Assembly: GCF_014646055.1 (NCBI RefSeq)
Contig: NZ_BMMS01000022.1
Location: forward strand, 62,264 to 126,263
Length of the DNA stretch: 64,000 nt
Reading direction: 5' to 3'
Source: Wenjunlia tyrosinilytica
GTDB taxonomy: Bacteria > Actinomycetota > Actinomycetes > Streptomycetales > Streptomycetaceae
Shown here: positions 33,075 to 59,522 of the stretch, in pieces
Layout of the letters: every line of letters starts with the position of its first letter
Position numbering within the stretch: position 1 is the stretch's first letter
The notes under the pieces: generated by a model
Told to the model about the DNA's origin: nothing
Seen by the model: only the letters and a program-made list of their open reading frames with translations
Database searches by the model: none
Made by a program: the position numbers and the translations under genes

Positions 33075-34406
33075 TCAGCCCGGCTGCCCCCCGTGCTGCG
33101 CCGAGGGCTCGACCACCGTGGCCGGCAGCATCACCAGCGCGGTCGTGCCCGTCGTCTCGGACGGTCTCAACTGGACCCGGACACCCTGGCGCTTGGCCAG
33201 GCGGCCAGCGATGAGCATGCCGATCCCGCCGGAGATCCGGCCGTCCACCGGCGGAGGATCGGCGAGGCGCTCATTGTGGACGGCGCAGTCCTCCGGCGAC
33301 ATCCCGATACCCGAGTCGTCGATCCTGACGACGATCCTCCCGTCCGGCAGCAGGTGGCCCGTGGCGTACACGCTCGTCCTCGGCCCGGAGAAGGAGGTCG
33401 CGTTCTCCACCAGCTCGGCGAGCAGATGGACGAGATCGTTGACGGCCGGGCCGGCGATCTCGACCTCCGGAACCCCGGAGAGCTCCACCCGCTCGTACTG
33501 CTCCACCTCCGAGGCGGCGGCGCGGAGCACGTCCACCAGCGGCGCCGGGCGGCGCCACCGCCGTCCGGGCTCCTGGTCCGCGAGGGCCAGCAGGGTCTCC
33601 CCGGTACGGCGCATCCGCGTACTGAGGTGGTCCAGCCGGAAGAGCCCCGACAACCGGTCCGGATCGCCCTCCTCGCGCTCGAGGTCCGACAGCAGCATCA
33701 GCTGACGCTGAATCAGGCGCAGGGTGCGCCTGGTGAGATCGACGAACACCGAGCCGACCTGGGCGGGCCGCGCCGCCACCTCCGCGCCCGGCTGCCCACC
33801 GGGCTGGAGTCCGAGCGCTGACATCTCCCGCGCGGTCTCCGCACGTGCCTGCTCCAGGCGCTCGCGGTCCCCGCGCACCAGGCGCAGAATCGCCTGGTTC
33901 TCCCGCAACTGCCCGTCCAGCACGGCAACACGCTCGCTCGCCCGGTCCCGCTGGGCGGACCACTGCCACGCCGCGTCGCCCGCGTCCTCGCGCGCGGGGT
34001 CGCTGTAGAGGCGCTCGATCTCCTCCTGCGCCCACTGCTCCCGTTCGCGCTCCAGTGCCAGCTCCTCGGTGAGCTTCACGAGGCTCTCGGACAGTTCCCC
34101 CTCCTGCTGCTCCACCCGCTCGGCCGCGGAGGCGAGTTCGTACTCACGCGCGTTTAAACGGCCCTTCGAACGCGCTGCCGCATAGAGCAACTCACGGCTT
34201 CTCATGAAGTACTCATGCGTGGGTGAGATGCCTGTTTGGGTGGCGAACAGTTGATGCAGCCGCTTCAGTACCTCGAGGGACGGAAGGCGCTCACCGCCCA
34301 GAAAGTTGGCCAGTTCCAGAGGATCCGTTCCCAGCCAAGCCGCCGACTCGCGCGGGGTGGCTCCGAGCTGGGCATGAAGGTCCCTCAAGTGCTCGACAAA
34401 AACCAT
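33075..34406 (-). CDS. helix-turn-helix / coiled-coil / HATPase protein, CvnA-like
   Basis: 443 residues from ATG 34406. Residues 3-55 form an XRE-like helix-turn-helix (EHLRDLHAQLGATPRESAAW, ELANFLGGERLPSLEVLKRL). Residues 75-200 are a coiled coil (EREREQWAQEEIERLY). Residues 205-290 match the dimer helix region of conservon CvnA proteins (TLRLIQRQLMLLSDLE, FRLDHLSTRMRRTGETLLAL). The C-terminus is a HATPase domain: N-box LLAELVENATSFS, G1 RIDDSGIGMS, G2 GGIGMLIAGRLAKRQGV. CvnA proteins normally have a membrane sensor and sit with CvnB-D; both are missing here. Divergent from a gene with a related helix-turn-helix. Confidence 0.8.
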   Translation of the reverse strand: MVFVEHLRDLHAQLGATPRESAAWLGTDPLELANFLGGERLPSLEVLKRLHQLFATQTGISPTHEYFMRSRELLYAAARSKGRLNAREYELASAAERVEQQEGELSESLVKLTEELALEREREQWAQEEIERLYSDPAREDAGDAAWQWSAQRDRASERVAVLDGQLRENQAILRLVRGDRERLEQARAETAREMSALGLQPGGQPGAEVAARPAQVGSVFVDLTRRTLRLIQRQLMLLSDLEREEGDPDRLSGLFRLDHLSTRMRRTGETLLALADQEPGRRWRRPAPLVDVLRAAASEVEQYERVELSGVPEVEIAGPAVNDLVHLLAELVENATSFSGPRTSVYATGHLLPDGRIVVRIDDSGIGMSPEDCAVHNERLADPPPVDGRISGGIGMLIAGRLAKRQGVRVQLRPSETTGTTALVMLPATVVEPSAQHGGQPG

Positions 34407-34843
34407 GATTTCGGGTGCTTCGTCATCCGCTGACGTGCGTACCCGCGCCTCGGGTTCCGGGAACCCCTGGTGCTGCCCCGGCTGCAATGGACGTACCCCC
34501 AAGAAGATGTTGACGTGGCTATTTTGACGATCACCGCCGTGATTGCCTATTCGGGCCGCGGAGCTCCGGCACTCGGGGCGTGGCGCCGGAGCGTACCGCC
34601 CTCTCCGTGGGCGCCGATGCGAACGATACGCAGCCTTCGCCCCCCGGGCCCGACATCCTCGGAGAGGCGCCGCCGACACGGCGAGGCGCGTAGGGTCTTC
34701 AAGCCAGGACGAGACGGAATGGCCGGATTCCAGGTGATTGCCAATTTGGCGAACATGCGGAGCCGACCGTGTGCGGTGCGTGACAATCGCAGCCTGGAGG
34801 TCGACGCGACCGTGGCGGGAGCCGGTGAGGAGGCAGGACGGCG
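34407..34843. other. divergent region with a promoter at 34524-34553
   Basis: No gene. On the plus strand TTGACG (34524) and TATTCG (34548) are 18 bases apart. Around 34739-34754 there is a near-palindrome TTGCCAAtTTGGCGAA, a candidate operator for the helix-turn-helix proteins encoded on either side. Confidence 0.45.
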
Positions 34844-36052
34844 GTGCACAGCGATGCGACGGGAGCCTGCGACGTGTCGGTCCAGGCGCAGCGCTACGCC
34901 TTGGCGTTGAAGGACCTCTTCAGCAGGTCGAAGGCTCCGCAGAGGGCGCTGGCCGAGACCTTGAACTACTCCGGCGCGGCCGTCTCCCGGTACTTCTCCG
35001 GTGAGCGGATCCCCGCCGCGGACTTCCATCAGGGCCTCGTCGACTTCCTCTCCGCGCGCGGTGTCACGGTGTCCGACAGCGAGCTTCGCGAGCTGGAGGA
35101 GCTGCGCGGGCAGGCACTCGCCGCGGGCTCCGCCATGGGCAGCCAACTCGCCTGCCTGCGTGAGGATGTCGAGCGCCTCACGGTTCAGCTGGCACAGGCC
35201 CACGAGACGAACCGGTCGGCCGCCCGCGACCTGAGCGCCCTGGGGCAGGAGCTGACGCAGCTCGGCCGGGCGCTGGAGGAGGCACTGGAGCGGGCCGCGG
35301 CCGCGGAGGCGGAACGCGACCGGCTGCGAACGGTCAACGCCGAACAGAGCCGCAGGCTCGAGGACGCCGCCGACTACAACCGCACGGTTGAGTCGGAGCT
35401 GGCGCAGGGCAAGGAGCGCATCGCCCGGCTGCACACCGAGGTGCAGGTGCTCCGGCGTCAGGTGCGGCGCCTCCAGGAGGAGGCCGCCGAACAGGAGAGA
35501 GCGGGCGAACAGGAGAGAGCGGGCGAACAGGAGAGAGCGGGCGAACAGGAGAGAGCCGGCGAGCCGGCCGAGCGGGCGGTCGCCGGGGCGGGCACGCGCA
35601 CGGGCGCCGGGGCGGGCACACGGACGGGCACCGCCACCGCCAAGGCCCGGACCCAGAGCCGCCCCCGTCGTACGCGGTCGGAGACGGCCGAGGGGTCCGA
35701 CGACATCACCGGCGGCGACTCGGTGACCGGTACCACGTCGCCCCGGCCGACCGGCGAGGGCCGCCTCGACGACGGGACGGGTGCCCCGCTCGACGACGGG
35801 CCGGGAATCCAGCGGGGGCAGGCGGAGCCGGTCGGTCGCCGCCGCCGCATGACCGACACGTGGGTGATCGCCGTGGCCGTGGTGATGGGCGCGGCAGGTG
35901 CGCTCGTGACGGAGACGGCCGCCCACGACATGGGCCAGGACATCGCCGCGGGCGCTGCCGTCGCCGCGGTCGTCTATGCCACCGAGCTCGCGAGCGAGGC
36001 CGTCGCCGACCGCGGTGCGAGACGCCGGAAAGGCACCGACGGCGGCGCATGA
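34844..36052 (+). CDS. helix-turn-helix / coiled-coil / membrane-anchored protein
   Basis: 402 residues from a GTG with GGAGG/AGGA upstream. Residues 15-65 are an XRE-like helix-turn-helix related to that of the divergent ATPase (LKDLFSRSKAPQRALAETLN, GAAVSRYFSGERIPAADF; shared F-x-GER-x-P end). Residues 75-215 form a long coiled coil, then four EQERAG repeats and a 100-residue disordered linker. The end has one or two hydrophobic segments (WVIAVAVVMGAAGALVTET, AAGAAVAAVVYATELA), so the C-terminus is membrane-bound with the DNA/partner-binding domain in the cytosol. Family unknown to me by name. Confidence 0.8.
   Translation: MHSDATGACDVSVQAQRYALALKDLFSRSKAPQRALAETLNYSGAAVSRYFSGERIPAADFHQGLVDFLSARGVTVSDSELRELEELRGQALAAGSAMGSQLACLREDVERLTVQLAQAHETNRSAARDLSALGQELTQLGRALEEALERAAAAEAERDRLRTVNAEQSRRLEDAADYNRTVESELAQGKERIARLHTEVQVLRRQVRRLQEEAAEQERAGEQERAGEQERAGEQERAGEPAERAVAGAGTRTGAGAGTRTGTATAKARTQSRPRRTRSETAEGSDDITGGDSVTGTTSPRPTGEGRLDDGTGAPLDDGPGIQRGQAEPVGRRRRMTDTWVIAVAVVMGAAGALVTETAAHDMGQDIAAGAAVAAVVYATELASEAVADRGARRRKGTDGGA
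35489..35560 (+). repeat. four 18-bp coding tandem repeats (EQERAG)
   Basis: GAACAGGAGAGAGCGGGC occurs three times exactly and once with one change, in frame. They lengthen the coiled-coil/linker of the membrane-anchored helix-turn-helix protein and look recently expanded. Confidence 0.9.
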
Positions 36053-36127
36053 CCATCTGCGGCGGCCCACCCGAACCGGGACACGTGGCCGCCGGTCGAC
36101 TGTGAACAGCATGTGGGGGATGTCTTG

Positions 36128-37933
36128 GTGTCAGCACGCTGGTCCCGGCTGCGGCCCATGGTCGCCGGCGTCACCGCCGGCGGTGTGGCGCTCGTGGGGA
36201 TGTACGTGTTCCTCAAGGGTTCCGGGGACGAACCTCCGCAGCCGATTCCGTGCGAGGTGTCGATCACGGTGGCGTCCTCGCAGGAGAAGGCGGACGTGCT
36301 GTCGGACCTGGCGGCGCGCTACAACCGCGCCAAGGGGTGCAAGCACGTGCAGGTCTTCGCCGACGGCTCCGGTGACGTCCTCGACTCACTGGCCCACGGC
36401 TGGAAACCGGAGGAGCACCAGGGCCACGATGTTCCCGAGGTGTGGAGCCCGGCGGCGACGGTCTGGGCGCGGATGCTGCCGAAGGAGGCGGACGGGCACG
36501 ACCGGTACCGCGTGATCAACTACTCCGAGGGCCGACTGCCCTCGGTGGCGCAGACCCCCGTGGTGCTCGCCATGCCCGAGACGATCGCGACCAAGCTCGG
36601 ATGGCCCGGCCGGGCGATCGGCTGGTCCACCTTGCAGCAGATGGCCGACGACCCCGCGAAGTGGAAGAAGGCCACCGGCGGCGGGGCGGGCACCTTCAAG
36701 CTCGGCAAGTCCAACCCCAACTACGCCACCACCGGCCTCACTTCGCTGTTCGAAGCCTATGCCGTGGCGAGCAACACGCCCACACAGGATCTGACCACCC
36801 GCACCCCGGAGGACGGGACGGTGCGGGAGCGGGTGAGGAGAGTGGAGGCCGCCACCATCCACTACGGGGAGACCTCACTGGTCTACCTGTGCAACCTCGC
36901 TCGCGCCGACGCCGCGCACAAGGCCCTGGGCTATGTGAGTGTGGTCCCGCTCGAGGAGAAGTCGGTCTACGAGTACAACCGGGGCCGCCGCGTCGGCTGC
37001 GAGGACACCCACCGACCGCACGAGCGGCTGGTGGCGGTCCACCCCGAGGAGGGCACCCTGGTCTCGGACGCCCCCTACGGCATCCTGTCCACCGTCAACA
37101 GAGACCAGCGCCTGCGCCCTCTGGCCGAGGACTTCCTCAAATTCCTGCACGAGTCGGCGCAGCAGGACACCATCAAGGACAGGGGTTTCCGCGGAGGCGT
37201 CGACGGCGAACTCGCCCCGAAGGTCGCCTCGGCCCTCAAACCGGCCGACACACGGATGCCGAAGGTCTCCGAGCTGCCGGCACCGGAGGCGCTCAACGCC
37301 ATCCGCAGGTCCTGGCAGAAGGTCCGCAAGCCGGCCCGTGTCCTGCTCGTCCTGGATGTGTCCGGTTCCATGAGTTACGACCCGCGCTCCCAGGCACCGC
37401 CCGCCCGGGGCAACCCCTCCCGGCTGGACCAGGTCAAGGCAGCCGCGAAGGCGGCCCTCGCCGACTTCGACGCCCACGACGAGGTCGGCCTGTGGAAGTT
37501 CTCCGGCGACAGGAGCACCTCCTCGACCCCCTACAGCGAACTCGTCGCGCCCGGCCCCATCGCCGCCACCGCCCCTCGGATAAGGGACGAGGTCTCCCAT
37601 CTGAGCCCCGAGCACGACACTGCCCTGTACGTCACCATCCGGGCCGCCCGCGAACGGCTGGCCCGGACCGCTCCGGACGCCATCAACGCCGTCGTCGTCC
37701 TGACCGATGGCCAGAACTTCTACAAGCCCGGCTACGGCATCAAGGATCTGACGAAGGACATCGACGCCTACGGCAAGGGGCGGCCGGTACGTGTCTTCAC
37801 CATCGCCTACAGCGGGAACGCACCGGTGGAGTCGCTGCTGGAGATCACCCGGGCGGGGGGAGGGTTCAACTACGACTCCACCGACCCCGACCGGATCGAG
37901 AAGGTTCTGCGGGAAGTGATCAGCAACTTCTGA
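36128..37933 (+). CDS. membrane-anchored solute-binding-protein / VWA fusion
   Basis: 601 residues. The GTG at 36128 follows GGGGGA with good spacing. A single N-terminal membrane helix (MVAGVTAGGVALVGMYVFL) is followed by a periplasmic-binding-protein-like domain (about 35-380: CEVSITVASSQEKADVLSDL, VWSPAATVWARM, QTPVVLAMPETIATKLGW). A von Willebrand A domain with a complete MIDAS motif (LVLDVSGSMSYD; later VVVLTDGQNFY) occupies about 410-600. The protein should face outward and bind a ligand and a metal-dependent partner. It lies 75 bases behind the coiled-coil gene and is probably co-transcribed. Function unknown. Confidence 0.85.
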   Translation: MSARWSRLRPMVAGVTAGGVALVGMYVFLKGSGDEPPQPIPCEVSITVASSQEKADVLSDLAARYNRAKGCKHVQVFADGSGDVLDSLAHGWKPEEHQGHDVPEVWSPAATVWARMLPKEADGHDRYRVINYSEGRLPSVAQTPVVLAMPETIATKLGWPGRAIGWSTLQQMADDPAKWKKATGGGAGTFKLGKSNPNYATTGLTSLFEAYAVASNTPTQDLTTRTPEDGTVRERVRRVEAATIHYGETSLVYLCNLARADAAHKALGYVSVVPLEEKSVYEYNRGRRVGCEDTHRPHERLVAVHPEEGTLVSDAPYGILSTVNRDQRLRPLAEDFLKFLHESAQQDTIKDRGFRGGVDGELAPKVASALKPADTRMPKVSELPAPEALNAIRRSWQKVRKPARVLLVLDVSGSMSYDPRSQAPPARGNPSRLDQVKAAAKAALADFDAHDEVGLWKFSGDRSTSSTPYSELVAPGPIAATAPRIRDEVSHLSPEHDTALYVTIRAARERLARTAPDAINAVVVLTDGQNFYKPGYGIKDLTKDIDAYGKGRPVRVFTIAYSGNAPVESLLEITRAGGGFNYDSTDPDRIEKVLREVISNF

Positions 37934-47087: not shown

Positions 47088-50000
47088 TCAGCCCCCGACC
47101 TCGTCGTCCGGCAGCGCGGCCACCTCGGCGAGCAGGGCCTGCGCGGTGGCCCCGGCGTCACGGTGCCGGTCGATCGCTGCGGCGAGGTCGGCGATCGCGC
47201 TCGACTCCAGCCAGGCCCGCAGCGGCAACCGCACCCCGAACCGCCGCCTGACCGCGGCGATCACCCGAGTGGCCAGCAGGGAGTTGCCGCCCACGCTGAA
47301 GAAGTCGTCCAGGACACCCGGATTGGGCAGACCCAGCACCTCCTGCCAGATCGCGGCCACCGCCCGCTCGGTCTCCGTGCGGGGCGGCACCGCGTGGCTG
47401 AGCTGTTCGCTGATGCTGCTCTCCGGCCGGGGAAGCGCCTTGCGCTCGATCTTGCCCGTGGGCCCGAGAGGGAAGGCGTCCAGCAGGGAGACCGAGGTCG
47501 GCACCATGTAACTGGGCACCCTGGTCGCCAGGAAGGCTCTCAGCTCGGCCGCGTCGAGACTGTCGTCGGAGGGCACGACATAGGCGGCCAGGCTCCGTTC
47601 GCTGCCCTCGCCCCACGGCACCACCAGGCACTCGCGGACCTTGGGGTGCTCGGTGATCTCGGCCTCGACCTCCAGCAGTTCGATCCTGATGCCCCGGATC
47701 TTCACCTGGTGGTCGCTGCGTCCGAGGAAGTGCAGATGACCGTCGGGCAGCAGCAGCGCCACGTCCCCGGTGCGGTACAGCCTGCGCCCGCCGCCCCCGA
47801 AGGGGTCGGGGATGAAGCGGTCGGCGGTCAGACCCGGCCGTCCCAGGTACCCCCGGGTGACGCTGTCGCCGCCGATGTAGACCTCGCCGCGGGCGCCGTA
47901 CGGCACCGGTTCGAGATTGCGGTCCAGTACATGGGTCGCCGTGTTGTTGATGGGCCGCCCGGAGCGGATGAACGGCAGGTCGGCGCCGCGCGGGACCACG
48001 TAGTAGGTGGAGTCGATGGACACCTCGGTGACGCCGTACAGATTGATCAGCTCGGCGTCCAGCAGCTCGTGGAAGCGGTCGGCCAGCGTGGTCGGAATGG
48101 GCTCGCCGCTGGCGAAGACGTACCGCAGGAGATGGCACTCGCCCGCGTCCTCGGCCGTCAGGAACGTCTGGAGCATCGCCGGGACGAAGTGCAGCGTCGT
48201 CACCCGCTCGGTGCGGATCAGCTCGGTGAAGCGGTTGAGGTCCAGATGCAGCCGCGGCGGGGCCAGGATCGCACGAGCCCCGACGAACAGCGGCCAGAAC
48301 AGCTCCCACACCGCCGCGTCGAAGCTGTACGCCGTCCACTGCAGGGCCGCGTCCTCGGGCCCCAGCGGGTACAGATGGCTGATCCACCAGACGAAGTTGA
48401 CCGCGCCACCGTGCTCGATCAGCACCCCCTTGGGGCGGCCGGTCGACCCCGAGGTGTACATCACATAGGCGAGATCGCCCGGACGGACCCCGGTCTCGGG
48501 CCGGGTGTCGGGGCAGTGCGCCCACAGGGCCGGCTCGTCCAGCGCGACCACACCGCGCACCGAGGGCAGCTTGCCGATCAGGTGGCTCTCGACCAGCACC
48601 ACCGGGCAGTCCAGGTCCTCGGCCAGGTAGTGGAGCCGGTCCGGGGGGAAGGACGGGTCCAACGGGGCGTAGGCGCCACCCGCCTTGAGGATCGCCAGGA
48701 TGGCGATGTTCAGGGCGAAGCCCGGTTCCGCGCACAGGCCGACGATCGTGCCGGGGACGACGCCCAGGTCCACCAGGTGGTTGGCCAGCCGGTTGGCGCG
48801 CCGCTCCATCTCGCCGTAGTCCAGGCTCTGCCCGTCGAAGACGAGGGCGGTGCGGTCCGGGGTGCGGTCCACCTGCTCCTCGACCAGTTGGTGCAGGCAG
48901 CGGTCGCTGGGATAGGCGACCGCGGTGGCGTTGTGCTCGGACGGTGCGGCCAGACCCCGCGCGCCCACCAGCGGCAGCGTGTCAATGGGCTTATCGGGAG
49001 TGGCCGCGGCCCCGGTGAGCACGGCCGCGGTGCAGCGCACCAGCCGCTCCACATGGTCGGCGTCGGTCACCGCCGGGTCGAAGCCCGCGACCAGCGCCAG
49101 GGTGTCACCGGAGTCCTCCACGCCGAGATGCAGCGGAGCGGTGCTGCTCGACGTCGGGGGCAGGACGGCGTCGTCACGGGCGTCGACCACGCTGTCGTAG
49201 AGCGCGACGCTGCGCTCGGCGCCGGTCAGGTCGTTGAGCGCGGCGCCCGGCAGATGGCCGAGCTCCCTGGCCTTCTCCATCCACTCGGAGCGGTCCGTCA
49301 GCCACGCGGCGGTGGAGGTGCCGTCGAGGAGGAACGGCGCCGGCAGGACTCGCTCGAAGGGGCCCAGGGCGTTCTTCAGACCGGGTGGGCGGGTGTCGAC
49401 GAGGAGTCCGACCACGGCGAGCGGTTCATTGCGGAACCGTGCCACGACCGAAGCCCAGGAGGCGGCGGTCAGCCGCAGCACGCACGAGCGTGTCGCCCAG
49501 GCCAGCTCACGCACCGCGGCCGTCTCCTGGGACGACAGCTCGACGCGCACGGTAGTGGAGCGGTCGGAACGCTCGTCGTCGGCGGCGAACAGCGGGGCCG
49601 GACCGCTGACTTCGGCGAGGGCGGCCTTCCAGAACGCCACTTCCTCCGGAGAAGCGCCGTCCTGGTGCTCCGGCAGGCCGCTCAGGTACGCGTCGAGGCA
49701 CGGGCGCTCCAGCACCCGGCCTCCCTCGGCCACCGCGGCGAGGTCGCCGAGCAGGAGGTGGGCGGCCAGGTCGTCGAGCAGGAGCGGATGGTAGGTGAGC
49801 ACGGCCTCGGCCGAGTCGGGCAGCCACAGCAGGCGCAGCAGCGGGCCGTCGAGTTCGGCGGGGAAGCCTTCCCGAAGGTCCCTCTCGGCGGCACCGGGGC
49901 CGTCCGACGTCGTGAACGGGGGCTCGGTGGCACCCGGTACCTGCGTCGGGCGCTCACCGTCCCAGGTGAGTCGAGCCGCGAGGACGGGCCTGGCGGCCAG

Positions 50001-50183
50001 CAGGCGGTGCCAGGCGGTGCGCACCTCGGCCTGCCCGCTCCCCGCGGGAAGCCCGATCCTGGCCTGGCGGGCGAGTCCGTGGGAGGTGCCGTCGAGTGCG
50101 GCGGAGACCAGTACGTCCTGCTGGGCGGCGGACAGGGGGAGGGCGGTGGGCGCCGGGCCCGCCGCGTCGGGGTTCACTGCCAT
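47088..50183 (-). CDS. NRPS C*-A-PCP module, predicted serine
   Basis: 1031 residues, GGAGG before the ATG, which overlaps the preceding stop. C region (about 15-430) carries HPLLLDD in place of HHxxxDG. The A domain (about 450-935) is complete: YVMYTSGSTGRPKG, FDAAVWELFWPL, INLYGVTEVSID, YRTGD, RSDHQVKIRGIRIE, GPTGKIERKAL. Read against the PheA scheme, the ten pocket residues are D-A-W-H-F-S-L-I-D-K, close to the known serine codes DVWHFSLVDK/DVWHLSLIDK. The PCP Ser is in FFSVGGNSLLAT. Intact loading capability with an inactive-looking C domain. Confidence 0.9.
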   Translation of the reverse strand: MAVNPDAAGPAPTALPLSAAQQDVLVSAALDGTSHGLARQARIGLPAGSGQAEVRTAWHRLLAARPVLAARLTWDGERPTQVPGATEPPFTTSDGPGAAERDLREGFPAELDGPLLRLLWLPDSAEAVLTYHPLLLDDLAAHLLLGDLAAVAEGGRVLERPCLDAYLSGLPEHQDGASPEEVAFWKAALAEVSGPAPLFAADDERSDRSTTVRVELSSQETAAVRELAWATRSCVLRLTAASWASVVARFRNEPLAVVGLLVDTRPPGLKNALGPFERVLPAPFLLDGTSTAAWLTDRSEWMEKARELGHLPGAALNDLTGAERSVALYDSVVDARDDAVLPPTSSSTAPLHLGVEDSGDTLALVAGFDPAVTDADHVERLVRCTAAVLTGAAATPDKPIDTLPLVGARGLAAPSEHNATAVAYPSDRCLHQLVEEQVDRTPDRTALVFDGQSLDYGEMERRANRLANHLVDLGVVPGTIVGLCAEPGFALNIAILAILKAGGAYAPLDPSFPPDRLHYLAEDLDCPVVLVESHLIGKLPSVRGVVALDEPALWAHCPDTRPETGVRPGDLAYVMYTSGSTGRPKGVLIEHGGAVNFVWWISHLYPLGPEDAALQWTAYSFDAAVWELFWPLFVGARAILAPPRLHLDLNRFTELIRTERVTTLHFVPAMLQTFLTAEDAGECHLLRYVFASGEPIPTTLADRFHELLDAELINLYGVTEVSIDSTYYVVPRGADLPFIRSGRPINNTATHVLDRNLEPVPYGARGEVYIGGDSVTRGYLGRPGLTADRFIPDPFGGGGRRLYRTGDVALLLPDGHLHFLGRSDHQVKIRGIRIELLEVEAEITEHPKVRECLVVPWGEGSERSLAAYVVPSDDSLDAAELRAFLATRVPSYMVPTSVSLLDAFPLGPTGKIERKALPRPESSISEQLSHAVPPRTETERAVAAIWQEVLGLPNPGVLDDFFSVGGNSLLATRVIAAVRRRFGVRLPLRAWLESSAIADLAAAIDRHRDAGATAQALLAEVAALPDDEVGG

Positions 50184-53100
50184 CGTGGCCTCCGGTCGGT
50201 GTCGGTGGGCTCGGGGAGTGCTTCCAGCGTGGAGAGCAGGTCGCCGACGGTGTCCAAGTCCTGCTCCCTCGTGGCGCCGGCCCGGTCCAGCAGCTCGGCG
50301 AGCCGCCGGACCGTGGGGGAGACGAAGAAGTCGGCCAGCGGGATGTCCACGCCGTGCAGGGCGCGGACCCGCACCAGCGCCTGGATGAGCTGGAGTGACG
50401 TACCGCCGAGTTCGAAGAAGTTGTCGTCGCGGCCGACCCGGGGCACCGCGAGCAGCGGGGCGAGGACGGTGTCGGCCAGCTCGCGTTCGATGCCGTCGGC
50501 CGGGGGTTCGTAGGGGCGGGCGTCGGCCTGGGCGGCGCGTTCCGCCAACCGCCGAGCTCCTCTTGGGTCCTGGCCGTGCCGTTCGTCGGCGGCGAGGACG
50601 CGCTCGGGGACGGCGGCGGGCGGCAGCAGCTCCGCCAACGACTCGCCCACGTCCGAGGGCGGTGCCGGGAGCTGCTGCCCGGGGGCCGGCCGAACGACCG
50701 CGTAGGGGTGTTCGGCGCGGCCCCACTCCAGCGGATGGGCCCCCGCCACCGCTGGAGCGCCGGTCCGCCCGGTCACGGCTGCGGCGATGTCGTCCGCCAG
50801 GACGGTGCGGCCCCCCACGGACACCCGGTCCTCGGGGAGACCGGCGAGGGTGAGCCCGCCGTCGGGGCCGACCCGCACCAGCGCCCCGGTACGGGCCATG
50901 CGGCTGCCGGGCGGACCGAACGGGTTGGGGCGCAGGCGGTCCGCCGTGGCGGCGGCGTCGCCGGGGTATCCGGAGCCGGGATCGGCGGCGGCCCACACCG
51001 TGCCGGTGCCCCCGGCGAGGACGGGCGCCAGGTCGTCATTGAGCACGAACAGCCGTGCGGCGTCTGTCACTTCAAGGGTGTCCGAACCGGCCAGTACGGC
51101 ATCGGGAGCCTCGGCCGCCCACCATCTGCGGAACACCGGCAGTCCGTCGGGGCCGCCCTCCCCGGCCAGCAGGGGCTCGGTCCTTCGCCGGTACGCGGCC
51201 CGCAGCCCCAGCAGGTGGACGGGTACGGACCCGGCCAGTTCGACGGGGAGCGCGGCGACGGTGGCCCCGGCGTCCGCCAGGGCGTCGAACCGGTCGTCGG
51301 CGCGGGCGTCCTGGTCGGGCAGGACGAGGGCCGCGCCCGAGCGGGCGGCTGCCAGCACGGCGACGGCGGCGTCCTCGCTTCCCCAGGTGAAGTCCGGGGC
51401 GAGGACGTCCTCGCGGGTCAGGCCCAGCAGGCGGCGATGGGCGTCGGCCGCACGGCGCAGTACGGCGGTCGGCAGGCGCAGGAGGCGGGGACGGGGACGG
51501 GCGCGCAGACCCACGAGGAGGGCCCCGGCGTCGTCGTCCCCCTCGCCGGTGGCCGCAATCGGTGCCAGGGCGGTCACCTCGCCGTTGGGCCGCAGCCTCA
51601 GATGCGGACGTGCGCCTTCCTCGACGGTCTCGGTCCAGGTTAGGGGGTCCCTCGGGTCATGGACCAGCACATCAACGCCCGCGGCGAGCGCCGCCAGGAG
51701 GGCGCCCACGGTGTCTGCGGTGCCGTCGGCGGTGAGGACGACCACCGTCCCCGCTCCCGCTCCGGCGGTGCGCAGGGCGTCTCGTACGCGCTCCATGTGG
51801 GCGGTGGTGTCCGCCGCCGACCGGCCGGCGCGGGAGCCGAGGACCACCGTGTCGCGGGGCGCGCGGTCGCCCCAGGCCGCCATGCCGTCACCGTACGAGG
51901 GGAGTTCTCGCGAGGCCGGGCGTGCGGTCGGCAGTGGATCGGATCCATGTCCCGTGAGAACGCGGCCGGTCGCCGTCAACAGCGCGTCGATCGTGGCGTC
52001 GTCGAACAGATGCGGCCGGTACTGGGCGGTGAGTTCGCGAGAGGAGCCGCCCGCCGTCCTGCTCTCGACCAGTACCAGTTCCACGTCGAAGGTCGGGACC
52101 GGGCTCTGGAGCAGGCGGACGCGGCTGCCGCCCCCGCCGATGCCCGGTGGCTCCAGGACCACGGCGTCCAGGCCCATGGGCAGGAAGGGCTCGGCACCCG
52201 GTGCGCGCTGTCCCAGCTCGGGCAGCCCGGCGATCGGGAACGACTCGTCGGCCAGCCCGGCCACCGCCTTCTCGGCACGGCCGAGCAGGGCCGTCGCGTC
52301 CGTTCCGGAGGCGATGTCGAACGCCACCGCCGCCGTCGTCGACAACTGGCCGATCAGGGCCCGGGTCGGTTCGGTGTGCCGCCCGCTCTCCCTCAGCCCC
52401 ACCCGCAGCGGGGAGGTGGCCCCCAGGCGCCGGAGCACCGTACCGGCGGCGGCCAGCAACGAGGCGGTGGGATCGCCGCCCTGTCCGCTGCCGCCGTGGC
52501 CGGTCGGGGAGTCGAGAGCCAAGCGGCGCACCGCGGACTCGGTCACCGGAGGTCCGGCGACCGGGGGCCGGTCGTACGGCAGCCGCGAGGCCCGGGGCCA
52601 ACCGAACCGCTCGGCGGCCCGCTCCGCGGCCTGCCTCAGCCGCTCCGGTGAGAACCGCCGCCGATGCCAGTGGGCGAAGTCCGCGAACCCGAAGGCTCCG
52701 GCCTCGGTCGGCCGGTTGTCGTAGAGGTCGGCGATCCGTGCGAACAGCGGTTGCAGGGACCGCCGGTCGAGCACCTGGCGGCTCGCGGCGACGAACAGGG
52801 CCGTGCCGGTGCCCCGTTCGACCACCGCGGCGCGCAGCGGGGAACCGCCTCGCGGGTCGAACGGTTCGGCCAGCAGGGCCGCCGTCACCGCGTCGTCCGT
52901 CACCGCGTCGTCCGTCACAGCGTCAGCGGCGGCCCCGTCCCCCGCCTCCCGCCAGTCGACCGAGGGACCCTGCCGCGGCAGCAGTACCAGCGAGCCGCCG
53001 CGTTCGCCGACGACCAGGTTCAACGCGTCGGTGATCCGGACCGCCGCCTTCACAGCGGCACGCAACCGCTGCCCGTCGAGCCTGCGTTCGCTCTCCATCA

Positions 53101-53305
53101 CACCCGCCGTCGCCAGCCGCCCCAGGTCCGGCACCGCCGAGGCCGCCGTGAACAGCCACTCCTGCTCCAGCGTCAGCGGAACCTCGGCGCCGGAGGGCCG
53201 AGGCCCCACGAACTCCAGACCGGCGGCTTCACGCGCCCTGCGGTTGACCACGGAGCGCAGTGCCCTGCGCCGAGCGGCCGGGTCGAGGCCGCGCTGCCCG
53301 CTCAC
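50174..53305 (-). CDS. NRPS C*-A*-PCP module with decayed adenylation domain
   Basis: 1043 residues; GTG overlaps the upstream stop (GTGA) with GGGAGG upstream. The C region has SRQVLDR where HHxxxDG belongs. The following ~440 residues have the length and order of an A domain but no A3 loop (GALLVGLRARPRPRLL in its place), no A7 TGD (RTGALVRVGPDGG), an altered A8 (GLPEDRVSVGGRTVLADDI) and no A10 Lys. The C-terminal PCP is sound (FFELGGTSLQLIQALVRV). The frame is open throughout with normal codon use, so it is a maintained protein, not a pseudogene. Its PCP must be charged in trans or stay empty. Confidence 0.85.
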   Translation of the reverse strand: MSGQRGLDPAARRRALRSVVNRRAREAAGLEFVGPRPSGAEVPLTLEQEWLFTAASAVPDLGRLATAGVMESERRLDGQRLRAAVKAAVRITDALNLVVGERGGSLVLLPRQGPSVDWREAGDGAAADAVTDDAVTDDAVTAALLAEPFDPRGGSPLRAAVVERGTGTALFVAASRQVLDRRSLQPLFARIADLYDNRPTEAGAFGFADFAHWHRRRFSPERLRQAAERAAERFGWPRASRLPYDRPPVAGPPVTESAVRRLALDSPTGHGGSGQGGDPTASLLAAAGTVLRRLGATSPLRVGLRESGRHTEPTRALIGQLSTTAAVAFDIASGTDATALLGRAEKAVAGLADESFPIAGLPELGQRAPGAEPFLPMGLDAVVLEPPGIGGGGSRVRLLQSPVPTFDVELVLVESRTAGGSSRELTAQYRPHLFDDATIDALLTATGRVLTGHGSDPLPTARPASRELPSYGDGMAAWGDRAPRDTVVLGSRAGRSAADTTAHMERVRDALRTAGAGAGTVVVLTADGTADTVGALLAALAAGVDVLVHDPRDPLTWTETVEEGARPHLRLRPNGEVTALAPIAATGEGDDDAGALLVGLRARPRPRLLRLPTAVLRRAADAHRRLLGLTREDVLAPDFTWGSEDAAVAVLAAARSGAALVLPDQDARADDRFDALADAGATVAALPVELAGSVPVHLLGLRAAYRRRTEPLLAGEGGPDGLPVFRRWWAAEAPDAVLAGSDTLEVTDAARLFVLNDDLAPVLAGGTGTVWAAADPGSGYPGDAAATADRLRPNPFGPPGSRMARTGALVRVGPDGGLTLAGLPEDRVSVGGRTVLADDIAAAVTGRTGAPAVAGAHPLEWGRAEHPYAVVRPAPGQQLPAPPSDVGESLAELLPPAAVPERVLAADERHGQDPRGARRLAERAAQADARPYEPPADGIERELADTVLAPLLAVPRVGRDDNFFELGGTSLQLIQALVRVRALHGVDIPLADFFVSPTVRRLAELLDRAGATREQDLDTVGDLLSTLEALPEPTDTDRRPRWQ

Positions 53306-54711
53306 CGCCGGCCTCCCGAGGTGCCCGCGCCGCCGTTGAGCAGATCCAGGACCCCTCGCCGCTGCGCCGGGCTCATCCACGGGACGTCGGCGACCGCCCG
53401 GTCCGGCCGGGCGACCGCCCAGTCCAGGAAGACGCCCAGCCGGGCGGCGAAGCCCTCTCCGGTCGCGTCGTCGAAGATGGACCTGCTGTAGTCGATCTGG
53501 ACCAGCGGGGACGACGGGTCGAGCACAAAGGTCGCGTTGATGTCGAACCTGCTCAACCCGTACTCGGGGGCGACGAGTTCGCACTCGATCCCGCCCAGCC
53601 GCACCGGCGGCGGCAGCCCGTCCACGGCCGAGCAGAACGCCCGGAAGAGCGGATTGCGGTCGCTGCGCCGATCGGGCCGTGCCCGGCGCACCAACTCCTC
53701 GAACGGCAGGGCCTGATGCGCCACCGCCCGGGCCAGCGTCCGGTGGGTGCGGCGCACCAGGTCGAGGAAGGACTCACGCGGCCGAACCGAGGCACGCAGG
53801 CACAGCGTATTGACGAAGCATCCGATCAGCGGCTCCAGCGACATGTCCGTGCGTCCGCTCACGGGCAGGCCCACCACGAAGTCCCGCTGCCCGCTGTACC
53901 GGCCGAGCACGGCGAAGTACGCGGCCAGGGCAACGGCGAACGGTGTCGCCCCCGCGCCGCGCGACACACTGCGCAGGCGCTCCCACGTGCCGGGGGACAG
54001 GGCATGGCGCACGGTCCCCATGGGCCCGCCCACGCCGTGTCCCGGCCGGTCGGCGGGCAGGTCCAGTTCCTCGGCGCCGTCCAGTTCCGCCAGCCAGTGC
54101 CGCAGCAGCTCCTCCCGCTCCCGTTCCAGGACCCGCCGCTCCCACCAGGCGTAGTCGCTGTACGACACCGGAAGCGGCTTGGCCTCGGCACCCGAGCACC
54201 CCTGGTCCAGTTCCTCCAGCAACAAGGCGGTGGACCAGCCGTCGAAAGCGAGATGGTGCAGGGTCAGCGCCAGCACCCACGCGTCGTCGGTGACGCGCGC
54301 CAGGCGCACCCGCAGCGGGGGTTCCCGTTCGAGATCGAAGACGGCGGCCAGTTCCTCGTCGGCGACCGCCACGGCCCGCGCCATGGTGTCGGCCCCCTCG
54401 GGAGCCGGCCGGCGGTCCACCGGTGGCCGCCGGCCGTCGAGTACGCGCTGCACGGGCAGGCCGTCCGGCCGGGGGGCGACGACCGTGCGCAGCGGCTCGT
54501 GCCGCTCCACCACGCGGTGGACGGACGCCAGGAGTGCCTCGGTGTCGGGCTCGCCGTGGAGCAGGAGCGCCACTTGGAGGTTGTACTCCGCCGTCGGCGG
54601 CCTGCTGCTGTGCACGAACCACAGCCGGGCCTGGGCGGTGGACAGCGGCGCGGGCCGCTCGGTGCCGGGTGTCACCGGGGGCCGCGCGGCGGTACCGGTC
54701 GGCCCGCTCAC
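53302..54711 (-). CDS. stand-alone NRPS condensation domain, intact
   Basis: 469 residues from a GTG that overlaps the aldolase stop (GTGA). Canonical motifs: LSTAQARLWFVHSS, RHEPLRT, TLHHLAFDGWS (active HHxxxDG near residue 150), DFVVGLPVSGRTD, IGCFVNTLCLR, HQALPFEELV. It is the only condensation domain of the leftward arm able to catalyse peptide-bond formation by motif, so it may serve the neighbouring modules in trans. Confidence 0.93.
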   Translation of the reverse strand: MSGPTGTAARPPVTPGTERPAPLSTAQARLWFVHSSRPPTAEYNLQVALLLHGEPDTEALLASVHRVVERHEPLRTVVAPRPDGLPVQRVLDGRRPPVDRRPAPEGADTMARAVAVADEELAAVFDLEREPPLRVRLARVTDDAWVLALTLHHLAFDGWSTALLLEELDQGCSGAEAKPLPVSYSDYAWWERRVLEREREELLRHWLAELDGAEELDLPADRPGHGVGGPMGTVRHALSPGTWERLRSVSRGAGATPFAVALAAYFAVLGRYSGQRDFVVGLPVSGRTDMSLEPLIGCFVNTLCLRASVRPRESFLDLVRRTHRTLARAVAHQALPFEELVRRARPDRRSDRNPLFRAFCSAVDGLPPPVRLGGIECELVAPEYGLSRFDINATFVLDPSSPLVQIDYSRSIFDDATGEGFAARLGVFLDWAVARPDRAVADVPWMSPAQRRGVLDLLNGGAGTSGGRR

Positions 54712-55778
54712 GCCCGTTCCCCCGCGGTGGCCAGGGGGGCGGCGAGCGTTTCGGGCGCGACCCGCGCGGCGGCGGCGACGGCCAGCTCCACCCCCGCGGA
54801 GTCGACGTCCCGGTGGGTCACAAAGCGCACCACGCCCGGGACGACCTCGGTCACCAGCACCCCGCGCTCGCGCAGGGCGGCGACGAACGGGGCGGCGCGC
54901 GGGCCGAGCCGCAGGGTCACGATGTTCGTGGAAGGCAGCGCGGGCGCGGCCCATTCGGGCAGCACATCGCGAAGACCGCGAGCGAGGCGGTGGGCGAGTT
55001 CGTGGTCCTCGGCCAGATGCTCGATCCCCTCCAGCGCGACCAGCCCGGCGGCGGCCATGGTGCCGATCTGCCGGAAGGTGCAGCCCAGTTGGCGCCGGGC
55101 CCGCGCGGCCGCGGTACGGACTTCCGCGCCGCAGCACAGCAGTGAGCCCATGGGCGCGCCCAGGCCCTTGTACAGGGAGAAGGTGACGGTGTCGCAGAGC
55201 GCGCCCACCTCATGGGCCGCGTAGCCGCCCGCCACGGCCGCGTTGAACAGCCGGGCTCCGTCGCAGTGCAGCGGCACCCCCGCGGCCCGGCACGCCGAGG
55301 CCACTTCCTCCAGGCGGTCCAGGGACCAGACCGAGCCGCCGCCGGCGCTGTGGGTGTTCTCCACGGCCACCATGCCCGTCTGCGGTGCCCGCCAGTCGTC
55401 GCGGGCCAGCAGCTCCTCCAGGTCGGCGGCGCCGAACATCCCGTCGGTGCCGTGCACGGCGGTCAGCTGCACTCCGGCCAGCCCGGCGACCGAGTGGGAC
55501 TCCCAGCGCACCAGATCGGTGTCGGCCTCCGCGATCAACTCCCGTCCCCGGGGCACGAGCGCGAGGATCGCCACCAGGTTCGCCATGGTCCCGCTCACCA
55601 CGAAGAGGGCGTCCTCGGTGCCCGCGAGTTCGGCCGCCCGCTCCTCCAGCGCGAGCACCGTGGGGTCCTCGCCGTAGAAGTCGTCGCCGACCCGCGCCGA
55701 GGCCATCGCCTCGAGCATCCGCCCGGTCGGCCGGGTCACCGTGTCGGACCGGAGATCGACCGGCGCCACGTCGCCCAC
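54708..55778 (-). CDS. low-specificity L-threonine aldolase
   Basis: 356 residues. The GTG at 55778 has a strong GGAGG five bases upstream and gives the typical start VAPVDLRSDTVTRPT. PLP-fold type I: FVVSGTMANLVAILAL, HCDGARLFNAAVAGG, PLP Lys in FSLYKGLGAPMGS. The family cleaves threonine to glycine and acetaldehyde, or joins glycine to aldehydes to make beta-hydroxy amino acids. As first gene of the leftward NRPS operon it may supply a beta-hydroxy amino acid or glycine; the direction is not shown by sequence. Confidence 0.92.
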   Translation of the reverse strand: MGDVAPVDLRSDTVTRPTGRMLEAMASARVGDDFYGEDPTVLALEERAAELAGTEDALFVVSGTMANLVAILALVPRGRELIAEADTDLVRWESHSVAGLAGVQLTAVHGTDGMFGAADLEELLARDDWRAPQTGMVAVENTHSAGGGSVWSLDRLEEVASACRAAGVPLHCDGARLFNAAVAGGYAAHEVGALCDTVTFSLYKGLGAPMGSLLCCGAEVRTAAARARRQLGCTFRQIGTMAAAGLVALEGIEHLAEDHELAHRLARGLRDVLPEWAAPALPSTNIVTLRLGPRAAPFVAALRERGVLVTEVVPGVVRFVTHRDVDSAGVELAVAAAARVAPETLAAPLATAGERA

Positions 55779-55998
55779 AGATTCCTCCTCGCGCTCCAAC
55801 ACGCTTCGACCGTCGTGCCTGGCGGGGAAATAGTGGTACGGAATTGCATTCCGGAAAGGATTTCTGTCCCGAACCCGTCACCTCTTTCCGAAGTGTTTCG
55901 GCGCGGCTTCGCGACGGTGCCGGTCAGGACTACTTTGTGGACTCACCGCGCTGAATTCACACGGGAGAACCACGGGAACCACGGGAGAGGAGCCCCCG
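55779..55998. promoter_or_regulatory. divergent promoter region of the two NRPS arms
   Basis: The leftward aldolase/NRPS operon and the rightward mbtH/NRPS operon share these 220 bases. It is less GC-rich than the flanks around 55830-55900. No -35/-10 pair was chosen. Confidence 0.5.
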
Positions 55999-56205
55999 AT
56001 GGACGAGCGGGAGGACGACCGCGAGTACAGCGTCGTGGTCAACGACGAGGAACAGTTCTCCATCTGGTTCGCCGACAGGCCGCTGCCCGACGGCTGGCGC
56101 GCCGAGGGGACCAGCGGGACCCGTCAGGAATGCCTGGACCACATCGAGCGGGTGTGGACCGACATGCGTCCGCGCAGCGTCCGCGAGCGCCTCGCGGCGG
56201 GCTGA
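55999..56205 (+). CDS. MbtH-like NRPS partner protein
   Basis: 68 residues, GAGAGGAG before the ATG. Family motifs FSIWFADRPLPDGWRAEG and CLDHIERVWTDMRP keep the conserved Trp residues. MbtH-like proteins bind adenylation domains and aid folding and activity. It is ten bases from the next NRPS gene. Confidence 0.95.
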   Translation: MDEREDDREYSVVVNDEEQFSIWFADRPLPDGWRAEGTSGTRQECLDHIERVWTDMRPRSVRERLAAG

Positions 56206-56215
56206 CGGCCGTCCC

Positions 56216-59200
56216 ATGGGTGTGACCGCAACTCGGGCGCTGCCCGCGATCCAGGAGCGCCTGCGGCGCAGCGAGCGCTGGGCCCCCGGGCACGGCTCGC
56301 ACACGGTCGCGGCGACCGTACCCCTGCCGCCGGGAGTCGGCCGCAGGGCCGTGGCCGCGGCTCTCGACGCGTGCACCGGCGCCCACCCGGCGCTGAGGAC
56401 CCGCCTGGCCGGCGGTGACCAGGACGCGGTGCTGTCGTGGGACGGCCCCGGGCCGAGCCTCGAGCCGTTGGCGGCGGGGGAGGACGGGAGCGCTCTGACG
56501 GCGAAGCCGTTCGACCTCGAACGGGGGCCGCTCGTGCGCGCGGCACTGGTCGAGGGGAGTCCCTCGACGCTCCACCTGGCCGCACACCGCTGCGCACTGG
56601 ACACCACGGCCCTGCGGCTGCTCGCCGCGGAGGTCGCGGCACGGGTGGAACCCGGGGCGCCCGGACCGTCCGGCCCGGGGCCCGCGCCGACGAGGCCGGC
56701 GACCGCACCGGCCGAAGCCGAAGCCGCCCCCGGCGCAAGCCGTGGGGCCGCAGCCCGTGAGTCCCGGGCGCCGCGGACGGCCGCGCGCACGCCTGCCGTA
56801 GCCCCCGGCGGCGGGTTCGTGCCTGCCGCGGCCCCCGACGCCCGGAACTCACCCATCACCGTGCCCGCGCGACCCCCCGCGCCCCTCACCGCGACAGCCG
56901 CCGAGGCGCAAGCCGCGCGGGAGGAGTTGGCGGGGGCGGCCGCCTTGCTGGACCTGCCGCTCGACGCGGCGCGCGGGGCCGGGGCCGCAGGGCCGGCGCG
57001 GACCGTCGCCGTGCCCGATCCGGACGGCGCACTCACCGGTCGTACCGAGCCGTCGGCCGTGCTCGCCGCCTACCTTGCCGTGCTTCACCGGTACACGGGC
57101 CGGGCCGATCTGCTCGTCGCCGTCGAGGTGGACCGGCGCCCCCACCCGGGTGCCATCGGCCAGTACACCGAACTGGTCCCCGTCCGCTTCCGGTTCGACG
57201 CCGCGGCCACCGCCTCCGACCTGCTGTCGGCCGTCGCCGACCGGCTGGCCGCGGTGAAGGGCGGCCCCGTGCTGCCCCACGACGTACTGGCGGAGCCCAC
57301 GGAACAGCCGCCGCGCTTCTCGGCCGCGTTCGGGGTCCGCCGCCTCGGCCCCGCCGGGGTCACCGCTGTCCCTGCCGCGGCCGCGGAGTCCGAGCTGGCC
57401 CTCACCGTGGTGGAGGCCGCCGGCGGTCCCGGGCTGGAGCTCACCCATGACACCGAGCTGGTCGTCGAGGAGAGCGCCGACCGCATCGGCCGCCATGTCC
57501 TCACGATGCTCCGGCAGTTGCTCGACCATCCGGACACGGCCGTGGGCGACCTCGACTTCCTCGGGCCCGAGGACCACGAGCTGCTGCGCCGCTGGGGCCG
57601 GACCGACGACGTGGTCGATCGGCTCAGGACCGTTCCCGAACTGGTGGCGAGGCGGGCGCGGGTGACTCCGGACGCCGTCGCCGCCGTGCTCGGCGAGCGG
57701 ACACTGACCTTCGCCGAGCTGGACCGGCGCGCCGACCGCCTCGCCCGTCACCTCGCCGCCGAGGGAATCGCACGGGGCGACGCGGTGGGGCTGTGCATGC
57801 CCCGCTGCCCCGAACTGCTGGTGGCCATGCTCGCGGTCCACCGGGCGGGCGCCGCCGCCCTGATGCTCGACCCCAAGGCGCCCGAGGCCTATCTGGGCCG
57901 GCTCCTCGCCCAGGCCGGGGTGTCGCTCGTGGTGACGACGGAACGCCTCCGGCGGGACTGGCCAGCCGAGGCCGCGCAGGTGCTCTGCCTGCTCGAATCG
58001 GGGGAGATCACCTCCGGCTCCGCCGACGCCGCCGACCCGCTGCCCGTCCCCGAACTCGACGACATCGCCTATCTGGTGCAGACCTCCGGCTCCACCGGCC
58101 TGCCCAAGCTCGTCGTCGTCACCCACCGCGGTGTCGCCCACTCCGCCCTCGCCCAGGTGCGCGCCCACCAAGTGCGGCGCGAGGAGCACGGCGGCTGGAC
58201 CTTCCCCCCGCACACCAATGTCTCCGTCACCGTCGTCGTCTGGGCGTTCCTCGTGGTCGGCGCGCCGCTGCACATCGCCGCCGATGACGAACTGTCCTCG
58301 CCGGAACGGCTGCGGGACTGGCTCATCGACTCGGGTGTGACGCAGGTCTTCGTCGTGGCGCCGCTCGCCGAGGCGCTGGTGACCGCCGACTGGCCGGAGC
58401 GGGTGCCCCTGCGCAGCCTGCTGACCGGAAGCGACCGGGTCCGCCGCTGGGCCCCCGCCCACCTCCCGTTCGAGGTCGGCAACTGGTACGGCGCCAACGA
58501 GGTCAACATCGTCACCACCCCCCTCCTGCCGTGGGAGGAGAGGATCACCTCGCACACCGCCACGGAACGCGACCGGGGCACCCCGCCGCCGATCGGCCGC
58601 CCCTGGCCGGGCGTTCGGCTGCACATCCTGGACCACCGGATGCGCCCCGTCCCGCCGGGCGTGGTCGGGGAGCTCGCGGTCACCGGACCGGAGCAGACCC
58701 GCGGCTATCTGACGGCCGCCCAGACGGCGGAGCGCTTTGTGCCCGACCCGTTCGGCACCGAGCCGGGCGGACGGCTCTATCTGACCGGTGACCTGGTCAG
58801 ATTCCGCCACGACGGGGCGCTGGAGCACCGCGGCAGGGCCGACCACCAGGTGAAGATCGCGGGTATGCGTGTGGAGGTCGCCGAGGTCGAGAACGCGCTC
58901 CTCGCCGCCCCCGGTGTGCGTGCGGCCGCGGTCACCGCACCCGACGACCCCTCGGGGACCCCGAGGCTCATCGCGTACCTCGTGGCCGACGACGGCCTGG
59001 ACACGGCGGCGCTGCGCCGAGCGCTCGCCGGGCAGTTGCCGGACCACATGGTGCCCCAGGCGTTCATTCTCCTGGACGCGCTGCCGCTCAACTCCGGCGA
59101 CAAGATCGACCGCCGTGCCCTTCCCGAGCCGGACTGGACGGCCCTGGCCTCGGCGTCCGCCCCGTCCTCCTCCGCCGACGGCGAAGAGGCGGTGGACAAC

Positions 59201-59434: not shown

Positions 59435-59449
59435 CCCCCGCACGACGGC

Positions 59450-59476
59450 GGGGCGCGCACCCCTGGTGCGCGCCCC
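59450..59476. terminator. perfect 12-bp stem-loop behind the NRPS gene
   Basis: GGGGCGCGCACC and GGTGCGCGCCCC with a 3-base loop, between the rightward NRPS gene and the leftward thioesterase gene. Confidence 0.75.
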
Positions 59477-59522
59477 CGTTCGCCCTCTCTGCCGGCCCGC
59501 TCCGCTCGGGCGGGGAATCGGT

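Follow-up and report, generated by a model that had tools for sequence, protein, structure and literature searches.

The locus

The subject of this report is a group of three adjacent genes within a 64,000-nucleotide stretch of DNA from Wenjunlia tyrosinilytica (Streptomycetaceae; contig NZ_BMMS01000022.1). The whole stretch is called the window, and all coordinates for the three genes are window positions (Table 1). The open reading frames (ORFs) and domains described in the initial annotation were confirmed. P0003 carries a solute-binding protein (SBP) domain and a von Willebrand factor A (VWA) domain behind a transmembrane (TM) anchor. P0002, whose gene precedes that of P0003 on the same strand with 60 bp between them, joins an XRE-type helix-turn-helix (HTH) to a long coiled coil and a C-terminal TM hairpin. 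P0001, encoded divergently from P0002 across a 437-bp gap, joins a related HTH and a predicted coiled coil to a kinase core resembling that of CvnA. We lean modestly toward reading P0003 and P0002 as a two-part transmembrane receptor whose output is of XRE type.

P0003, a probable SBP-VWA receptor

P0003 contains one N-terminal TM segment followed by matches to SBP_bac_11 (E=8e-15) and VWA_2 (E=5e-10), just as proposed when it was first described as a membrane-anchored ligand-binding domain fused to a VWA domain with a metal ion-dependent adhesion site (MIDAS). The MIDAS residues are invariant or at least 90% conserved across 42-46 relatives. In the AlphaFold2 model, built from a 42-sequence alignment (predicted local distance difference test score, pLDDT, 88; predicted template modeling score 0.85), the SBP domain is packed on the VWA domain. 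Foldseek matches the two halves separately, one to AfuA and to sulfate- and molybdate-binding proteins and the other to the vWFA domain of LapA. Because a positive N-terminus precedes the single TM segment, the C-terminus is predicted to be extracellular, and relatives in which a kinase, an HTH, or a phosphorylase is fused N-terminal to the TM segment agree with this orientation. P0003 has the features by which members of the family were recognized: a TM-anchored SBP domain, then a VWA domain with a complete MIDAS, and a C-terminus of the form (I/V)xNF.

A modular receptor family

P0003 was used to search 249 genomes of the family, 395 of the class, and 251 and 399 further genomes, and about 125 neighborhoods were read. 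The 116 SBP-VWA loci that were classified yield counts that mirror sampling and shared ancestry and are not independent events. Of the 116 loci, 38 were left unlabeled by the script and were then inspected one by one. A separate branch of Streptomyces SBP-VWA proteins (L026-L051; ~30% identical), which adjoin glutamate-cysteine-ligase-like and PhzF-like genes, was excluded. What emerges is something that the initial annotation had missed: the window protein is a member of a larger SBP-VWA family with swappable outputs.

At 51 of the 116 loci, the gene directly downstream and on the same strand encodes a protein with a DPW-type (DxW) TM hairpin and a helical or coiled-coil tail, belonging to no Pfam family. 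A PspA_IM30 gene (PF04012, 4e-32) follows the receptor and hairpin pair at 11 of these 51, in several families. An upstream Ser/Thr kinase, most often with a C-terminal hairpin, is present at 12 loci. These kinase-hairpin genes lie mostly 28-93 bp (in one case 179 bp) from the receptor gene, as P0002 does from P0003. At five loci (L265, L266, L268, L269, L270) the kinase is fused to TM-SBP-VWA, in two distinct architectures from different families. At ten loci a WD40-KAP NTPase with TM segments (PF07693) is encoded upstream, and the receptor gene is usually followed by one for a small hairpin protein; the NTPase genes (L285, L286, L288-L291, L302, L303, L314, L315) lie 35-78 bp upstream, and their closest PADLOC models are PifA and QatA.

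Rarer arrangements include XRE-HTHs fused to TM-SBP-VWA (three loci; Pfam HTH_31 is above cut-off in L171 and L272 and weak in L229), nucleoside phosphorylase-TM-SBP-VWA fusions in Streptomyces (two; L053 6863-10309 and L054 7178-10273), convergent, non-operonic caspase-EACC1 pairs beside the receptor gene (two; L022, L273), and a TIR protein downstream of it (L169). In the f36 family (L174-L176, L178, L179), the receptor gene is followed by a different protein of ~280-340 residues with one TM segment and no Pfam match; several of these five receptors look like lipoproteins.

In a quick tree, which has some long branches and whose deep joins are unsure, the upstream-kinase group and the caspase group each form a single clade, and the fused kinases have at least two origins. 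P0003 pairs with L052, a receptor from another Streptomycetaceae genome, and next with the two caspase-linked receptors (100% branch support), within a wider clade that also includes the upstream-kinase and WD40-KAP groups. Together, these comparisons point to a modular receptor family, widespread in actinomycetes, whose cytosolic output appears to have been exchanged between lineages.

Some other members of the family were recorded in passing. Tandem SBP-VWA gene pairs about 100 bp apart, possibly encoding heterodimeric receptors, occur in one actinomycete family (L216; G758, G783, G778, G764, G655, G730, G769). On a plasmid (L057 2472-7819, NZ_CP013744.1), a trypsin-nSTAND1-WD40 gene overlaps a truncated SBP-VWA frame and looks like a decayed fusion. 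An HTH-TM-SBP-VWA homologue with an in-frame TAG (L172, G264:C41) is probably a pseudogene.

A hairpin that probably links P0002 to P0003

P0002 is itself an adjacent, same-strand gene product with a hairpin of the partner type. A first hidden Markov model, made from 20 downstream SBP-VWA partner proteins with P0002 left out, was tested against 655 real TM stretches from neighboring proteins and 1500 shuffles. The C-terminus of P0002 ranked first (E=2.3e-5), above all decoys, and the hairpin of the upstream Ser/Thr kinase of L173 ranked second (3.6e-5). With a second profile, made from six kinase hairpins and tested against 1102 decoys and 1000 shuffles, P0002 (E=1.1e-5) again scored above every decoy; one standard partner hairpin (L151) was higher. 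The downstream-partner and kinase profiles match each other at 87.5%.

HTH coiled-coil proteins with two TM segments from other genomes, which have no SBP-VWA neighbor, do not match the hairpin profile. Those of L059-L061 were considered as P0002 orthologues and rejected, having an unmatched hairpin and no receptor nearby. The caspase hairpins of L022 and L273 and the membrane region of the L169 TIR protein were also tried as members of the hairpin family; the profiles give no support, and thus these associations are positional only.

The HTH coiled-coil module

Foldseek matches the modeled HTH of P0002 to ClgR (the closest fold), C.BclI, and lambda repressor (E about 0.01-0.05), and P0002 is the only one of the two HTH proteins with a Pfam HTH_3 match, at a sub-threshold E=0.016. 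The XRE fold of the model makes sequence-specific DNA binding a predicted role only. Matches of P0002 to PADLOC SMC/JetC-like and NCBIfam SMC models were discarded as coiled-coil artefacts.

In actinobacteria, ClgR is the regulator of the psp operon in which it lies (PMC11237479), and the ClgR match, like the PspA_IM30 genes that follow some receptor and hairpin pairs, would suit a role in envelope stress. SBP-VWA would then be an ancestral sensor of envelope integrity, coupled by hairpin/coiled-coil proteins to PspA/IM30 repair, and the window copy would keep this role with a transcriptional output. However, the similarity to ClgR (E about 0.01) is generic to the XRE fold, most SBP-VWA loci lack PspA, and no PspA-like gene was seen adjoining the trio in the window gene calls, with neighbors read by eye. 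The known PspA/IM30 systems (PMC11237479) are similar in that PspA stands beside SBP-VWA and hairpin pairs in some actinomycetes; they differ in that the window is without PspA, and searches of the text of that paper turned up no SBP-VWA partner. We judge the envelope-stress role quite improbable.

The proposal that P0001 and P0002 share a related N-terminal HTH survives profile comparison. Direct BLASTP between the two HTHs is weak (E=0.02), whereas their families match at a profile-profile probability of 97.6%, and each matches an HTH coiled-coil receiver family (and its relatives) at 99.2%. Ordinary XRE HTH controls reached 0.03-40%, although as single sequences they are somewhat handicapped. 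The motif that had been read in both proteins as F-x-GER-x-P does exist, but it aligns as [FY]-x-x-G-E-R-x-P (FLGGERLP in P0001 and YFSGERIP in P0002). On the evidence of the profiles, the two HTH regions are taken to be homologous beyond a generic HTH.

Both proteins display the features of what is here called the HTH-CC module: an N-terminal XRE HTH with [FY]xxGxRxP, further helices, and a coiled coil, with >100 alignable columns. When 150 family genomes were searched with either N-terminus, overlapping protein sets were obtained (that of P0002 has matches in 33 of the 150 Streptomycetaceae genomes at E≤0.001), and P0001 and P0002 fall into different HTH-CC subfamilies. P0002 had no match in the plasmids searched, and a scan of genome contigs gave one locus. 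HTH-CC is found fused to a receiver (L108), SpoIIE (L078), TPR-like repeats, a CvnA-like kinase (L096), 2TM tails (L059-L061), and, judged by reading without a Pfam match, a trypsin-like domain (L065/L102). Streptomycetaceae proteins with an HTH-CC N-terminus and receiver, SpoIIE, trypsin-like, or repeat domains are encoded at L108, L100, L101, L072, L075, L077, L078, L065, L068, L063, L071, and L105. By these comparisons HTH-CC is a real, broad actinobacterial module, and it looks like an unnamed adaptor.

At two loci (L087 529-2589 and L117 3205-5602), a caspase-HTH-CC-TPR-like protein is encoded right after an EACC1 gene (PF19953, 4e-29) and beside a trypsin-STAND gene. Going by this domain order, HTH-CC is used within an EACC1-caspase conflict system.

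The latter observation bears on another reading, in which the three genes serve conflict or cell suicide: SBP-VWA would face outward as the sensor of a modular family for immunity or stress-death, and HTH-CC would be a homotypic, death-fold-like adaptor recruiting an effector such as P0001, not a transcription factor. In their account of the EACC1-caspase system, Kaur et al. 2020 (PMC7159879) count among its variable domains a TM segment with an extracellular periplasmic binding protein domain, and a vWA that is MoxR-independent. That system, like the SBP-VWA loci, is membrane-associated, modular, and actinobacterial, and the relatives at L022 and L273 adjoin a caspase-EACC1 pair. Also consistent with conflict are the TIR neighbor, the nucleoside phosphorylase fusions, the WD40-KAP NTPases with their PifA and QatA resemblance, and the place of P0003 next to caspase-linked receptors in the tree. 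However, the window trio has no effector-type domain. Neither a caspase nor EACC1 was identified in the three proteins or on reading their neighbors, some small ORFs being left unscanned. SBP-VWA is encoded by a receptor gene of its own, has a hairpin partner, and is linked mostly to outputs other than caspases; the caspase-EACC1 genes are convergent with it, not operonic. Neither their hairpins nor the TM region of the TIR protein match the partner profile. Most often the partner is a helical protein, and a minority of such loci have PspA close by, an arrangement more like envelope homeostasis. PADLOC finds no match for P0003 and no convincing defense match for P0001 or P0002. MoxR-vWA ternary conflict systems differ further, since no MoxR AAA+ gene was recognized beside P0003 when neighbors were read by eye, without a profile scan. 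A conflict function is thus considered unlikely.

P0001, a soluble relative of CvnA

P0001 matches HATPase_c (PF02518, E=6.9e-12). Its reading frame remains open upstream of the assigned ATG as far as 34679. The kinase half shares about 63% identity with kinases of conservon type from its own genome. After one of these a roadblock gene is visible; more distant paralogs in that genome are followed by full conservon sets (roadblock, DUF742-type, and GTPase genes). Conservons (CvnABCD) are G-protein-like Streptomyces systems (Komatsu et al. 2006, as described in PMC4316618) in which CvnA is characterized by TM segments/HAMP and a C-terminal LPxR (PMC4316618). In contrast, P0001 is soluble, with no TM segment and with HTH-CC in place of TM/HAMP; it ends in LPAT; and no CvnB roadblock, CvnC, or CvnD GTPase gene was found beside it in the window gene calls. 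The assignment of P0001 as a conservon CvnA was therefore ruled out: it is a protein that works like a CvnA relative and not a conservon member.

P0001 had been cast as the ATPase partner inside the cell. Only the HTH-CC module shared with P0002 and the divergent adjacency of the two genes favor this role. On the shared module and the adjacency, it is plausible that P0001 is a partner of the receptor pair.

Weighing the receptor reading

Several observations count against a P0003-P0002 receptor or against its extension to P0001. By its own terms, the initial annotation would be refuted if the three genes were not neighbors in other genomes, and for the exact trio this is the case: P0001-P0002-P0003 was found in no other sampled genome (the host genus is represented by only two), and a conserved three-gene operon was rejected on the searches with P0003. 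Close SBP-VWA proteins are present in 4 of the 249 family genomes, and P0002 adjoins only the window copy. The L052 receptor, 52% identical to P0003, lies in a neighborhood without either HTH gene, and the one other genome with the HTH-CC-kinase architecture (L096/L116) has it without an SBP-VWA gene, so that P0001 has no receptor association elsewhere. Outside Streptomycetaceae, co-occurrence of P0002-type proteins with SBP-VWA was assessed from the SBP-VWA side only. About a fifth of the loci (about 25 of the 116) have no recognized partner. Since fusions of HTH-CC to enzymes and to repeats are frequent, it could be an adaptor instead of a DNA binder. Finally, single-sequence hhalign comparisons of the P0002 hairpin were 40% and 81% probable. 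Because one unrelated TM decoy reached E=1.2e-4 on the first profile, and because the hairpin is short and alanine/glycine-rich, the evidence that it is homologous to the hairpin partnering SBP-VWA elsewhere is good but not overwhelming.

The lack of conservation of the trio, the abundance of HTH-CC genes, and the different subfamilies of P0001 and P0002 would also fit three independent genes, P0003 being a stand-alone surface binder and the other two unrelated members of a large HTH-CC family. Such a coincidence is nevertheless rather improbable, given that the P0002 hairpin beats all decoys on the partner profile while other HTH-CC-2TM proteins lack it, that P0002 and P0003 are closely spaced on one strand, and that HTH-SBP-VWA fusions exist elsewhere. 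These same features, together with the kinase and phosphorylase fusions, the 51 downstream hairpin partners, the kinase-, WD40-KAP-, and caspase-linked clade of P0003, and the homology of the P0001 and P0002 HTHs, are why the receptor reading is preferred. Of the sensor-to-cytosol relay in the initial annotation, an external SBP-VWA with a coiled-coil membrane adaptor is retained, in keeping with the hairpin homology and the fused or operonic outputs elsewhere; the three-gene set is not conserved, and the kinase link stays unproven.

A possible mechanism

The domains, topology signals, hairpin and HTH-CC homologies, and output exchange, which come from sequence and structure prediction, suggest how a P0003-P0002 receptor might work. 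From them we infer a physical complex, a direction of signaling, a ligand, DNA binding, and an involvement of P0001. P0003, anchored by its single helix, would display outside the cell an SBP domain for ligand capture, packed on a MIDAS VWA domain for metal-dependent binding of a protein or peptide. The DxW hairpin of P0002 would pair with the membrane helix of P0003, and its coiled coil and XRE HTH would reach into the cytosol. Binding of a ligand or partner outside would alter the contact between the two proteins, and this effect, relayed by the TM helix of P0003 and the hairpin of P0002, would change the assembly of the P0002 coiled coil. As a result, DNA binding might be altered or other HTH-CC proteins recruited. 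The most plausible recruit would be the soluble P0001, bound via coiled coils or the HTH-CC region and acting as a kinase or ATPase effector.

An extracellular sensor, a membrane helix, and a cytosolic kinase or HTH are also the components of receptor Ser/Thr kinases with PASTA domains and of membrane-tethered one-component regulators such as CadC and ToxR. SBP-VWA relatives likewise carry fused Ser/Thr kinases and XRE-HTHs. Unlike these proteins, the sensor here is a combined SBP-VWA, and the window HTH is supplied in trans, hairpin-tethered, and of XRE type rather than winged.

The SBP-VWA receptor family was not found in PMC7159879, PMC8195603, or PMC11237479. Literature searches, including one with the exact annotation phrase, returned no description of such a receptor; subscription papers and bioRxiv lay outside their scope, and a prior description is possible. 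The family is apparently undescribed.

Features and surroundings of the locus

Table 1. Coordinates of the genes, domains, and intergenic region in the window
Feature	Position	Strand	Basis or remarks
P0001, HTH - coiled coil - CvnA-like kinase core, 443 residues from ATG	33075-34406	-	
P0001 CvnA-like kinase core: dimerization region with LDHLSTRMRR, then HATPase_c	33099-33782	-	
P0001 HATPase_c	33120-33440	-	N box, DSGIG (G1) and GGIG (G2) motifs read from sequence
P0001 predicted coiled coil	33789-34166	-	Sequence; similarity to other HTH-CC proteins reaches into it
P0001 N-terminal HTH, HTH-CC family	34179-34403	-	Profile comparison
Intergenic region P0001/P0002, divergent, 437 bp	34407-34843		Several short inverted repeats
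P0002, HTH - long coiled coil - linker - TM hairpin, 402 residues	34844-36052	+	
P0002 XRE/lambda-repressor-like HTH, residues 13-94	34880-35125	+	AlphaFold2, Foldseek, profile comparison
P0002 single long helix/coiled coil (~140 residues), residues 98-239	35135-35560	+	AlphaFold2; pLDDT mostly >95
P0002 low-complexity disordered linker, with ERAGEQ repeats	35561-35839	+	AlphaFold2; sequence
P0002 DxW TM hairpin, residues 333-395, probably homologous to SBP-VWA partner hairpins	35840-36028	+	AlphaFold2; profiles
P0003, TM-anchored extracellular SBP-VWA receptor (predicted), 606 residues	36113-37933	+	
P0003 SBP domain, residues 49-375	36257-37237	+	Pfam, AlphaFold2, Foldseek
P0003 VWA domain, residues 391-604	37283-37924	+	MIDAS intact (D415, S417, S419, T503, D532)

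A scan of the region between P0001 and P0002 recognized no sigma-70-like promoter and no terminator. The region contains a 14-bp inverted repeat (34445-34473; 79%, 1-nucleotide spacer), which would be a candidate operator should either of the two HTH proteins bind DNA. In the window gene calls, P0001 is flanked by a sugar ABC permease gene and P0002. Farther away (47088-64000) lies what looks like a non-ribosomal peptide cluster, made up of large multidomain genes together with a P450-like gene and cut by the window end.

Implications

It is a speculative and, in our estimation, doubtful extension that actinobacteria have an undescribed class of surface receptors in which SBP-VWA is the face that binds the ligand. 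Such a class would combine an extracellular sensor, the conserved DxW hairpin as pairing device, and an exchangeable output (kinase, XRE-HTH, nucleoside phosphorylase, KAP NTPase, PspA, and possibly TIR or caspase) that triggers defense or envelope protection, an architecture comparable to that of plant receptor kinases and animal Toll-like receptors. The sensors known in bacterial immunity are mainly cytosolic. If the extension holds, multicellular actinomycetes would gain an outside-in pathway for sensing danger or the state of the envelope, with outputs that overlap conflict-system effectors and PspA membrane repair. Proteins whose sole annotation at present is "substrate-binding and VWA domain-containing protein" would also receive a function. 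The window holds the only case found with an HTH-coiled-coil output in trans and a possible kinase partner adjacent, and thus offers a compact place to test the coupling of receptor and output by a hairpin.

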